IMG/VR virus record: IMGVR_UViG_3300006734_000053
Location: 1-20,143 of that record
From: a virus
DNA: 20,143 nucleotides
Direction: 5' to 3' (one strand)
Below the pieces are notes generated by a model. It had not been told where the DNA came from and searched no databases. It saw nothing but the letters and a program-made list of their open reading frames with translations. A program made the position numbers and the translations under genes. Positions 1,659-5,291 of this stretch are shown here, piece after piece (the first letter of the stretch is position 1; each line of letters opens with the position of its first letter).

Positions 1659-2959
1659 AAACGCAATTCCTGTGATTTGAAGCTGGCACGATCAATCGGC
1701 CATTCACGGTGGACCATGTAGCCAATCGCTGTGGTGATGTGCTGGCTTTCGTTCTTCTGGTCCTCTTGGAATGTGCTGCCCTTTTGAAGCTGCACCGTTG
1801 CCAAGCCCTTGTGGCACATCGGTGCCTTTGTCGTGTTCACGAACAAGCTGCGCTCACCCGCTGCGTTGCATATCTTCGCCCGAACAGCGTTCTGCCGGTC
1901 CTTGATCGCTGGTGCTGACCGCGCAACCTTGCGGCTAAACGTCCATCCTGCATCGCGTAGCACGGCCTCAATCTCGGTATAATCCGATGCGTGACCGTGC
2001 TTTTCGCCTGCGCGTCCAGCGGGGTCACCGTAAATCAGCACCCGTTTGTTCTTGTGGTCCTTGTAGCGCTCCACGAATTCAACCGCTGACTGCCGCGAAA
2101 CCGCGCTGATAAGCACAATCTCGTCCAGCAGAAGCAGGTTGCCATTGCGCACCACCCCGATAGCCGACGAAAGCGGCGTAAAGTTCTGGTCGTGCATCCA
2201 ATGAAGTTGCTCGTGAGGCTGGATTTCCTCGGTCGTGTGGTTCGCCGTGCTGTAATCCTCGTAGATACGCCCGGTCGCGGTTTCAAAGCTGGCTTCGAAC
2301 TCCTGCTGAAACTGCTTTTTGCTCATGACCCGCTTAGCCGATGCAATCACATCAGAAGGCAGAATCTCCGAAGACTTCCAATGATACGCCGCCCACTCAG
2401 GATCGCCCGATGTGGTCGCATACTGGTACATGTCGTAATAGTGGTTCAGGCCGTCAGGCACGCCGATCAGCCAGCACCACGCCCGATAGTCAGGGCGTAG
2501 AGGCGAAACCGTGTTTAGGGCGGGCAGAATGTTCGCCTGCCAAGCGTCCTCTTTCACGTCTGCAATTTCGTCAATCACGCCGCCGGTCCAAGGAATGCCC
2601 TCGATCCGCTGCGGCTTGTCTAGCCCGATCAGGTGGATCTCCGACCCGTTCGGCATGAATATCTTTAGGTCACTCTCGCTTGGCGCTTTGGCGTGGGATG
2701 CTGAGAAGGTCATTGCCTTCATATCATCCCAGAAGATCTTCTTGACCTGATCCCGCGTAGGGGCAGCGCAGAAATAAAGCTCGTTCGCGTTTTTCATCGC
2801 CTGTTTGGCAACGTACCGCTTTGCCCGCTCTGTCTTGCCCGACCGGCGACCCGCTGGCACAACCTTGAACCGGACCTGCTCGTCCTTGAGCCTGACCTGT
2901 TCGGGGATGTCGATAAGCGGATACCAGCGCCCGGCTTGCCGATCTAGCTGGATGCTCAC
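1655..2959 (-). CDS. terL: Terminase large subunit (packaging ATPase/nuclease)
   Basis: The motor that cuts phage DNA and pumps it into the prohead. The 434-residue protein has an N-terminal ATPase domain with a Walker A loop GRRSGKTE (residues 37-44) and a Walker B strand ending VIDE (128-131, Glu as catalytic base). The C-terminal half should be the RNase H-like nuclease; acidic candidates lie in the segments LIYGDPAG and HASDYTEIE. The start is GTG at 2959, overlapping the terS stop as GTGA; no ATG fits better. It is the second gene of a coupled terS-terL-portal-head unit transcribed leftward. Length and motifs look complete. Confidence 0.93.
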   Translation of the reverse strand: MSIQLDRQAGRWYPLIDIPEQVRLKDEQVRFKVVPAGRRSGKTERAKRYVAKQAMKNANELYFCAAPTRDQVKKIFWDDMKAMTFSASHAKAPSESDLKIFMPNGSEIHLIGLDKPQRIEGIPWTGGVIDEIADVKEDAWQANILPALNTVSPLRPDYRAWCWLIGVPDGLNHYYDMYQYATTSGDPEWAAYHWKSSEILPSDVIASAKRVMSKKQFQQEFEASFETATGRIYEDYSTANHTTEEIQPHEQLHWMHDQNFTPLSSAIGVVRNGNLLLLDEIVLISAVSRQSAVEFVERYKDHKNKRVLIYGDPAGRAGEKHGHASDYTEIEAVLRDAGWTFSRKVARSAPAIKDRQNAVRAKICNAAGERSLFVNTTKAPMCHKGLATVQLQKGSTFQEDQKNESQHITTAIGYMVHREWPIDRASFKSQELRL

Positions 2960-3330
2960 CCTGGCAGCTTGTCAGCGATTTTGTTCAGCGCGTCTGCCAC
3001 CTCGTCGCCCCCGCCGCCTTGCTGGTCGTGGAAGTGTTGCCGCAACTGGCCCAATGCCGAGACACGGGCAGAGTGGCTAGTGCCTTCCCCTTCGCGCTCG
3101 GCCTCAATAGCCAACCGCTGGATAACGTAATCCATTGTGATGTGAGTGCGCTCTGTACGGTCTGCCTGTGCTTTTGCAATCGCGGCAGCAATGTCGGGTT
3201 TTGTTAGGTTCTCGGCACCCGTCGAACGCGCCGTCTTCTCGCTGTAGCCCGCCGCAGTAGCTGCGCGGGTAGCGTTCCCGTCGATTAGGTATTCCGCAAC
3301 AAAGCGCTCCTGCTTAGCAGTTAGCGCCAT
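2956..3330 (-). CDS. terS: Terminase small subunit
   Basis: A 124-residue protein matching the Terminase_2 family: it opens MALTAKQERFVAEYLIDGNA, followed by TRAATAAGYSEKTARSTGAE, the typical N-terminal helix-turn-helix, then a long helical part that would form the oligomer ring. The small subunit recognises the packaging site on phage DNA and hands it to TerL. A purine-rich GGGAAG lies upstream of the ATG. It is followed by terL with a GTGA overlap and preceded by a long gene-free interval that holds three 11-bp-spaced direct repeats, a plausible recognition site. Confidence 0.92.
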   Translation of the reverse strand: MALTAKQERFVAEYLIDGNATRAATAAGYSEKTARSTGAENLTKPDIAAAIAKAQADRTERTHITMDYVIQRLAIEAEREGEGTSHSARVSALGQLRQHFHDQQGGGGDEVADALNKIADKLPG

Positions 3331-4089
3331 ATCTAGACTTCCCGTCTGTTGTGCTGAGGTGAAGGGCTTCCCGCCCGGTGGTGCGTATCGCCGCCGCGTT
3401 GTGTCTCATGTGCTGAGAAAATGTCGAGTAACCGTCGACTAGGCGTCGAGTAAGTGACGCGCCTTAGCATCCATGCTTAGAAGGGTGCCATCCATGTTAC
3501 GGGCCTTTAATCCCCGCTCGGGCAGTCCTACTGAAAGCCGCCGACACTCACCCCGCTTTATAGGCGCAGGGCTTGACCGCCACATGGGCTACCTATCCGG
3601 GGCCAGTTAAGTGCCTCAACCCGGAACTGAGCAGATGACCCGCGCATGTCCGAGGCCGGAGCCAAGTGCAGAGGCGCGTGTCGTATGTTGAGCGGCGGGA
3701 CTTGATACCCGCTTCACCCTTTCGGGCTACCGAGTGTGTTGCAACTCTGCCTTTCCGGCTTTCGCCGCGCTCTGAAAGCCTCGACACGGCCAGTCTAGCC
3801 GACGTATTCTCGCAATAGGCGCTGTTGCTCCACATGCGATAGACGAAGCCACCAGAAAGCGGCTGTGTTGAGCGCGTCCGCCATTCGTTGGACAAAGGCC
3901 CCTGCGGTCGGGGTGCTAGCACTGCCATGTTGCCGCGCTCATGTGGTGTGCAACCTATGTCGCCGTTTTGCTATGCGGGGACGGCCAAGCCCTCAGATCA
4001 TGCACACCACATCAAAGCGGCTTGAATCGAAAAATGCGCCCAGATAAATCAAGACGCACTTCGAGTTTCGACAAGGCACGCGAAACTTG
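3331..4089 (-). ncRNA. Candidate large structured RNA / highly structured terminase leader (gene-free interval)
   Basis: No convincing coding frame exists on either strand between terS and the GIY-YIG gene. The interval is dense in stems: a 12-bp perfect inverted repeat (3941-3952 with 4001-4012), a 7-bp helix directly next to it (3870-3876 with 3934-3940), a 7-bp helix (3677-3683 with 3782-3788) closing a five-way junction, and hairpins at 3596-3625, 3551-3571 and 3899-3913. Two hairpins have GAAA loops when read on the minus strand. The stems at 3551-3571 and 3604-3618 have G.U pairs on the minus strand where the plus strand would have C.A mismatches. A promoter-like pair just upstream (4124-4096) would start transcription near 4089. 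No U-tract terminator is visible, so the transcript may run on into terS. Large phage RNAs such as GOLLD or ROOL are possible relatives, but I recognise no family signature. Confidence 0.5.
3423..3453. repeat. Three direct repeats with exact 11-bp period upstream of terS
   Basis: GTCGAGTAA (3423), GTCGACTAG (3434) and GTCGAGTAA (3445) follow each other at a spacing of exactly 11 bp, about one helical turn, so all three would face the same side of the DNA. They lie about 90 bp upstream of the terS start. Small terminase proteins bind phased repeats near their own gene in several phages (pac or cosB sites), so this is a candidate TerS binding site. That role is inferred from position and spacing only. 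Confidence 0.5.
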
Positions 4090-4095
4090 CCTCTG

Positions 4096-4124
4096 ACGAT
4101 AGGGCATTTTAAGCCCTGCGTCAA
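4096..4124 (-). promoter_or_regulatory. Sigma-70-like promoter for the structured interval and terS
   Basis: On the minus strand TTGACG (4124-4119) and TATCGT (4101-4096) are separated by 17 bp, which predicts a start near 4089, right after the GIY-YIG gene ends. The spacer contains a small inverted repeat, AGGGC-N7-GCCCT (4101-4117), which could be an operator or a weak terminator stem for the gene upstream. It has no T-run. Confidence 0.45.
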
Positions 4125-4660
4125 CCACGATTTAGCGTAAATGGGTCTTCCCAATACGCACGATCAACAGCGTTGTGGGCCTTGTGCTTCACGTCCATTT
4201 GGTTGGTGCGCAGATAGGCGTATTCGTCGGCTGGCTGTTCTTCCATAGGGGCACCAGCTTCAAACACCGGATTGACCCCAAGAAACTCGGCAGCGCCCTG
4301 TATCGCGGCGGCTCCATATGCGGGGTTTGCAAGTGACCACTCGCCTTCACACGGGAACTGCCTGCGCATCCGCAGCAAGGCGCACCGCTCCACTACCTTC
4401 GCATCATCCGTTGAAAACTCGGCCCAATAGCCGATGTGCAGATCTCGGCCAACAACGTCCTGTAGCTTCCGCATCCTATTCTTTAGCTGGGTGGTGCGCC
4501 CTATCTTCAAAAGCGGCATGTCCTCCAGCACTACGCAATAAACGACAGAACGCTGCTCATCGCGCTCACGGGATTGCCGTGCCGCATTCGCCGCCCAAGG
4601 TGCGCCTGCGTCTCTGGATGGACGAACGCCGCTGTTTGGTGCTATCTCATTTTTAGCCAT
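4121..4660 (-). CDS. GIY-YIG superfamily protein (T5orf172/MUG113-like)
   Basis: A 179-residue protein with a small nuclease-like domain in the middle: VYCVV (residues 40-44) stands for the GIY part, KIGRT (52-56) for the YIG-like strand, followed by NRMRKLQ (61-67) with the expected Arg, and a Glu near residue 91 in VVERC. This spacing matches the T5orf172/MUG113 branch of the GIY-YIG superfamily. The ATG at 4660 has AAGGA six bases upstream; a GTG 15 bases earlier is less likely. The position next to the packaging region recalls free-standing nucleases near terminase genes in other phages, but its target is unknown. It has its own promoter-like sequence upstream, and the C-terminal 80 residues are unassigned. 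Confidence 0.7.
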   Translation of the reverse strand: MAKNEIAPNSGVRPSRDAGAPWAANAARQSRERDEQRSVVYCVVLEDMPLLKIGRTTQLKNRMRKLQDVVGRDLHIGYWAEFSTDDAKVVERCALLRMRRQFPCEGEWSLANPAYGAAAIQGAAEFLGVNPVFEAGAPMEEQPADEYAYLRTNQMDVKHKAHNAVDRAYWEDPFTLNRG

Positions 4661-4728
4661 TTCGAATCCTTTCACATTCGATTTCGGTCAGGGCTGGCGA
4701 GGTGTGCAACCACCTTACCGGCCTGTTT

Positions 4729-4760: not shown

Positions 4761-5291
4761 TCAAGCACTTATCGCGTCCAAAGCGTCGCGCAATTTCCAC
4801 ACGGTCAAGCGCCCTGCCTGCTCCGGCGGCATGTCCAGCCCGACTTCAAGCACGCGCACCTGCGGCGGTGTTAGCTGGCGGGTGATGTGGCGGTATGCAC
4901 GGAACACTTCGGGGTTGCCGTCTCCGTCGTCGTGCCCGCCTACCCCACCGGCCAAGCATGAGCGATACCCCGACACGCCAAGCTCTGCCACGAATGCGGC
5001 GCGAACCTCCTGGAACGAACGTGCTGCCTCAAGCTGTGCTTCGGTTATCTCGCGGCGATGGTACAGCGTGCCTGCCATGTCCGACGCCAGATCCACGTCG
5101 GGCTGCTCTGCCTTGCCCTCTACCCACACGCCATGCGCCCGACGCTCGTCTGTGGGCTTCATGCTCTGCCGCTTTGCCACGGCGCGTAGGCTGCGCTCTT
5201 TGACGCCTGTGCGCTCGTTGGTCGCTACCTCTGGGGGGGTATACCCCTTGGCGCGTCGTTTGTTGCGGCGCTTCTGTGCTTTACTGCTCAT
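4761..5291 (-). CDS. Hypothetical phage protein, possible late-gene regulator
   Basis: 176 residues. The N-terminus is very basic (MSSKAQKRRNKRRAKGYTPP); the C-terminal part (about 90-176) is helical with a Gly/Asp loop GGHDDGDG, then a segment LTPPQVRVLEVGLDMPPEQA that reads like a helix-turn-helix of the sigma-region-4 / DUF6456 kind. Genes at this place, last of the early operon and just before terminase, often encode late activators or antiterminators (Q, ArpU and similar). The regulator role is inferred from position and the weak HTH look; I do not recognise a named family with certainty. The start overlaps the preceding gene by 11 bases. Confidence 0.6.
   Translation of the reverse strand: MSSKAQKRRNKRRAKGYTPPEVATNERTGVKERSLRAVAKRQSMKPTDERRAHGVWVEGKAEQPDVDLASDMAGTLYHRREITEAQLEAARSFQEVRAAFVAELGVSGYRSCLAGGVGGHDDGDGNPEVFRAYRHITRQLTPPQVRVLEVGLDMPPEQAGRLTVWKLRDALDAISA

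Follow-up and report, generated by a model that had tools for sequence, protein, structure and literature searches.

We describe a phage RNA family that is absent from Rfam and represents a new RNA family on a tRNA-like theme, which we call tRNA-like RNA (TLR). The family and its structure are almost certainly real. One member lies on the minus strand (3688..3774) of an IMG/VR fragment of 20,143 bases, which is referred to hereafter as the window. The phage of the window is a marine, temperate roseophage, and the interval that surrounds its TLR appears, from sequence comparison, to be a modular noncoding RNA locus heading the packaging operon of roseophages. No description of TLR was found in the literature searched, which lay mainly beyond subscription papers.

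A gene-free interval with a conserved promoter-like sequence

On the minus strand of the window, 790 bases (3331-4120) without a credible gene are bounded by the terminase small subunit gene terS (2956-3330; PF03592, 5.7e-27; phrog_51, 4.5e-29) and a T5orf172 (GIY-YIG-type) gene (4121-4675; PF10544, 3.5e-5). The gap is conspicuous by contrast with terS, terL and the portal gene, which overlap by 4 bases each. There is, however, also a spacing of 85 bases between the two genes upstream of the interval. The absence of genes from the interval itself was borne out. Its longest ORF (3593-3928, minus strand, 111 aa) matched no Pfam or PHROG family, and the DNA under this ORF is exchanged for unrelated cargo or tRNAs in sister phages. 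Relatives of terS from IMG/VR have about 100 nt around the terS start in common and do not share the interval.

A promoter had been proposed for the minus strand, and the pair TTGACG (4124-4119) and TATCGT (4101-4096), spaced by 17 nt, is indeed found at 4096..4124. Taken alone, such a sigma-70-like pair is weak evidence, since 1.9 kb contained two sites where 0.8 would be expected. In sister phages, however, the equivalent place is again marked by TTGAC-17-T(A), with its position conserved in no fewer than four further contexts (L030, L084, L090 and L085/L088/L094). The structure of the interval is likewise specific to the minus strand, as had been suggested: folding gave z = −2.09 with none of 20 shuffles as low, versus z = −0.32 and 9 of 20 shuffles for the plus strand. 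Both hairpins with GAAA loops that had been noticed earlier (3767-3756 and 3727-3716) are genuine and are parts of the TLR. The minimum-energy fold of the full interval mispairs the TLR with downstream sequence, and the TLR structure was revealed only by comparison and by folding of the module alone.

Membership in the GOLLD or ROOL families, put forward as one possibility, was not borne out: region 3200-4300 of the window matched no Rfam family, either at gathering thresholds or in a permissive search at E ≤ 10, in which FMR1-AS1_2 (E 5.1) and mir-27 (E 3.2) were dismissed as chance matches, and two sister intervals searched at E ≤ 5 yielded nothing besides tRNAs. Neither ARAGORN nor the RF00005 covariance model called a tRNA in the window, and the tmRNA models RF01849 and RF04321 had no match there.

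Identification and covariation of the TLR family

Comparison of the interval with phage DNA records provided two short matches, one of 49 nt (98%) located near terS in temperate Sulfitobacter phages and the other of 51 nt (80%) located between two tRNA genes of Vibrio phage KVP40. A pattern search based on the KVP40 match led to another phage tRNA array (L033) and to a permuted tmRNA (L032), where the match lies between the two tmRNA pieces. Stepwise widening of the pattern, with the flanking pairing checked, gave more than 20 loci, all of them viral. Pattern hits in L049-L053 and in several of L055-L083 were dismissed as chance. Searching 731 kb with a covariance model (R1) built from seven loci, the window being excluded, returned 21 loci, namely the window (77.2 bits, E 8.6e-17) and 20 other phage loci.

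TLRs are 84-87 nt long and share a plan that reads, from 5′ to 3′, a 7-bp closing stem (P1), hairpin arm1, the joint GAAANGCA, arm2, GGUA, arm3, GAAG, a T-arm and the return strand of P1. Arm2 typically has a GAGN stem and the loop UGNAACAY; GAAG overlaps the T-stem, and the T-arm consists of 5 bp closed by a 7-nt UUCAANU loop or by a loop of 8 nt. The invariant core is thus GAAANGCA, UGNAACAY, GGUA and GAAG. Two features depart from a tRNA: the 8-nt UGNAACAY loop stands in for a 7-nt anticodon loop, and the window encodes no CCA. In the window, P1 is formed by 3774-3768 and 3694-3688, followed by arm1 (3767-3756), GAAAGGCA (3755-3748), arm2 (3747-3732), GGTA (3731-3728), arm3 (3727-3716) and the T-arm (3712-3695), all on the minus strand. 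This copy has the five-helix layout, the covarying stems and every invariant segment that define the family, and adopts the family structure when folded in isolation (z = −3.28). Only 5 of the 7 positions of its P1 are paired and the T-loop has 8 nt, so that RNase P might cut the copy of the window less canonically.

Covariation among homologues, for which the preliminary description had proposed a test, was found for the TLR. In the 21-row alignment 96.4% of cells pair, and for 17 of the 23 base pairs both partners have changed in one or more sequences. Compensated cells number 105; column shuffles give 27.7 ± 4.3, and a control with slid partners never exceeds 18. Fitting of the alignment to the structure favors this count, but the margin is large. 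A second model (R2), made from all 21 members, scores the window at 84.6 bits and gives at least 69 bits to every known member searched. Below these scores, R2 matches mostly tRNA genes (14-28 bits), headed by class-II tRNAs that align from end to end. Because of this alignment, we equate arm1, arm2, arm3 and arm4 of the TLR with the D, anticodon, variable and T arms, respectively.

Distribution and genomic contexts of TLRs

TLR carriers range from phages of about 40 kb to giants of 280 kb, and each phage record searched whole contains one strong copy. Isolates with a TLR are KVP40 and its close relatives (13 records) and DSS3_MAL1. No plasmid with a TLR was found in a plasmid search. A scan of 84,980 bacterial and archaeal genomes, which used the UGCAACA variant of the pattern only and says nothing of the UGAAACA variant in cells, gave nine matches, all attributable to chance on inspection as arms were missing.

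Ten of the 21 members have a tRNA within 2-12 nt and another lies 98 nt from one; four, including that of the window, have no tRNA called nearby. Another five lie within permuted tmRNAs according to ARAGORN, and L065, which has the same flanks, makes a sixth; the permuted tmRNA of L032 is supported by Rfam (RF04321/RF01849). TLRs also occur in front of terminase genes (L073) and upstream of a major capsid gene (L081). A 3′ CCA is encoded by two of the 21 members (L036 and L037, as ACCA) and is missing from the other 19; the TLR of L037 follows an ACCA end.

Several further loci came to light during this survey. L032, L038, L056, L060, L064 and L079 are phage contigs with a permuted tmRNA of alphaproteobacterial type (tags ANDN.../ANVN...), each with a TLR in its spacer. 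L036 (3098-3222, minus strand) contains a further unannotated tRNA-like unit with GUCUGGG/CCUAGAC, ACCA and a hairpin loop around UUGAAACAA, which scores 22.8 bits with R2 and is perhaps a divergent second TLR of the same 285-kb phage. Another unannotated tRNA-like unit, found within a 22-tRNA array (L083, 7721-7806, minus strand), has an acceptor-like AGTAGTG/CACTACT stem, a T-arm-like hairpin, a long variable arm and neither a CCA nor the TLR core.

A modular locus in roseophages

Sister roseophages have a comparable interval at the front of the packaging operon, in which the promoter position, the pairing of a helix A, a helix B and a terminal block are kept while the cargo is swapped. In the window, all these elements are on the minus strand. 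A 5′ hairpin (TGCGTCT...TGGGCGCA) followed by TTTTTCGATTC occupies 4035..4058; a 53-nt block here is 96% shared with L090, and other sisters have equivalent hairpins of different sequence. In unit 1, the constant AAGCCGCTTT (4023-4014), the counterpart of AAGCCG(C/G)TTT in sisters, precedes the 12-bp helix A (4012-4001/3952-3941; unit segment 3941..4023), whose duplex energy is −23.9 kcal/mol. The position of helix A is kept with a different sequence in L001, L030/L090, L084/L089/L092 and L094/L088/L085. Among 2000 shuffles, those as good as the real pairing numbered 1 for unit 1 of the window, 16 for L001, 2 for L030, 8 for L084 and 0 for L088.

Helix B of unit 1 (GAGCGCG, 3940-3934; CGCGCTC, 3876-3870) brackets a 57-nt cargo at 3870..3940, and the same helix brackets other cargo in sisters. 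A second unit follows in tandem, with a copy of the 5′ part at 3775..3864 (AGCCGCTTT at 3864-3856). Helix A of this second unit is weak and no better than shuffles (308 of 2000 as good). Here the TLR is the cargo, and helix B doubles as its P1. In L090, an Rfam-supported tRNA (37 bits) takes the helix-B position where the window has its TLR, and tRNA-Met, Ser, Ala or Gly-like genes are found elsewhere in the interval of other sisters. In the Sulfitobacter plasmid-borne phage locus L084, Rfam calls a tRNA of 138 nt (5141-5278), about twice the normal length, which points to an insertion or an intron.

Downstream of the units, the 58-nt block B (3633..3690) is 98% identical in the plasmid-borne phage region of L084 and in others. 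Block C (3359..3428, 49-66 nt) is 97-98% identical in L001, L030 and L031, upstream of unrelated first genes, and its core CAACGCGGCGGCGATACGCA is present in all 15 roseophage loci examined. A sequence resembling GGCGGCGA lies within it, ahead of terS, and the block could be a packaging site of the cos type. We also considered block C as an attP site; it has no tRNA end, and phage A of this group integrates at the 3′ end of a tRNA-Leu (PMC7305329). As for the neighboring genes, the T5orf172/GIY-YIG-type gene that separates the upstream gene from the RNA locus in the window is missing from L090, and a different GIY-YIG-like gene directly follows block C in L001 and L092.

Proposed function and alternative interpretations

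We favor, and consider moderately probable, an explanation in which the minus strand encodes a locus of noncoding RNA and the TLR is excised from its transcript like a tRNA to act as an uncharged mimic or decoy. The interval would be transcribed from its own promoter, and the primary transcript would be cut in the manner of tRNA precursors, with RNase P cleaving 5′ of the 12-bp stack of acceptor and T-arm and other RNases acting on the 3′ side, presumably freeing a stable RNA of about 85 nt. The involvement of tRNA-maturation enzymes is suggested because this stack is the recognition element of bacterial RNase P, and tRNA-like processing seems quite likely to us. We take the TLR to be uncharged because 19 of the 21 members encode no CCA; charging is possible for L036 and L037. 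The usual view of phage tRNA clusters is that they counter tRNA-targeting defences or fit codon usage. By mimicking a tRNA, the TLR could act in trans on some tRNA-handling protein of the host, and its most plausible role would be that of a decoy against a tRNA-targeting defence or tRNA turnover, preferred because tRNAs of phages are known to compensate for defences of this kind (PMC13096335). A decoy directed against defence, proposed here by analogy, is nonetheless a tentative and rather doubtful assignment.

A large noncoding RNA with a promoter of its own had been envisaged in the preliminary description. The noncoding locus and its promoter are supported, and covariation was found, but the best-defined part is the 84-87 nt TLR rather than one large RNA. 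The interval could still be a single modular giant RNA, the founder of a new ornate family like GOLLD and ROOL, in which helix A/B units form a scaffold that carries TLR or tRNA cargo and delivers or protects it during infection. We hold this to be possible while inclining against it. The promoter of conserved position, the compensation that keeps helix A across five sequence types, the constant helix B around changing cargo, the conserved 3′ block C and the minus-strand folding are consistent with one RNA, as are tRNAs within the locus, since tRNAs are reported to occur sometimes in the GOLLD linker (PMC12286853). However, no terminator separates the interval from terS, the loci are mosaic, so that the alignments cover only part of their length, helix A of unit 2 is not significant in the window, and the TLR exists independently of the scaffold in other phages.

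The extreme conservation of block C beside different first genes, the GIY-YIG-type genes that flank the locus and the mosaic blocks could alternatively reflect a DNA element, either a cos or packaging-initiation site or the target of the neighboring GIY-YIG nucleases, with recombination debris around it. We find this unlikely, as it leaves the covariation of the TLR, the promoter and the compensation in helix A unexplained. Somewhat less likely still is a cis-acting role as a long 5′ leader controlling either the translation of terS or the transcription of the late operon. The interval does lie directly upstream of terS with no clear terminator, and block C, which precedes the first gene by 30-100 nt, hardly varies. 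Against this, the block stays constant while the downstream genes differ among sisters, and TLRs also occur away from terS in tRNA arrays and tmRNA intervening segments. The leader suggested earlier is possible only insofar as the packaging operon has this locus at its 5′ end.

The layout of class-II tRNAs, the location of TLRs in tRNA arrays and the ACCA of L036 and L037 would fit an unusual functional tRNA engaged in decoding or suppression. This is very improbable given that the TLR lacks a canonical anticodon loop, that its UGNAACAY loop is nearly invariant whereas the acceptor stems vary freely, that most members encode no CCA, and that ARAGORN and Rfam make no tRNA call on it. Finally, a small protein encoded by the 111-aa ORF is essentially refuted already, because this open frame has no family match, is replaced by other DNA in sister loci and overlaps the TLR, whose pairs covary irrespective of codons.

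With the TLR as an excised, tRNA-shaped RNA, a conserved and apparently uncharged molecule that is found even within tmRNA spacers would be an unrecognised player in the contest over tRNA-based defence. Cultured phages that carry it, namely KVP40 with its relatives and DSS3_MAL1, make it a defined object for experiments. If the surrounding locus were one RNA, it would add another to the giant phage RNAs, of which there are to our knowledge very few, and its swapped tRNA cargo would hint at what these RNAs do.

Comparison with known systems

TLRs can be compared with class-II tRNAs of the Leu, Ser and Tyr type, with which they share a 7-bp acceptor-like stem set directly on a 5-bp T-arm, the UUCAANU T-loop and a long hairpin resembling a variable arm. 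They differ by the lack of a 2-nt spacer before the D-arm-like hairpin, by the invariant joint GAAANGCA, by the 8-nt UGNAACAY loop in place of the anticodon loop and by the usual absence of CCA. RNA C and RNA D of T4 (species 1 and 2), which the TLR would somewhat resemble in its working, are stable RNAs whose annotated place is next to a tRNA cluster of the phage, and the fold of RNA C also combines a T-arm adjoining the closing stem with a variable-arm-like hairpin. The conserved TLR core is absent from both, and no significant TLR match was found in the whole of T4, where the best scores with filters off were 12.7 bits for tRNA-Leu and 12.4 bits across tRNA-Arg/RNA D; we therefore excluded RNA C and RNA D from the family.

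GOLLD and ROOL, which are large and structured phage RNAs of unknown function, occur like TLRs near tRNA islands (PMC12286853); the window has no Rfam match to them. In permuted, two-piece tmRNAs of phages, six TLRs lie between the two pieces, as an extra domain of the spacer outside the mature tmRNA. Finally, the GIY-YIG-type genes bordering the locus look like homing beside an RNA array, by analogy with T4 SegB, where a gene of this type also lies beside a mosaic phage tRNA/RNA array (PMC13096335); the nuclease of the window differs in being a weak T5orf172 match only, with a putative cleavage activity.
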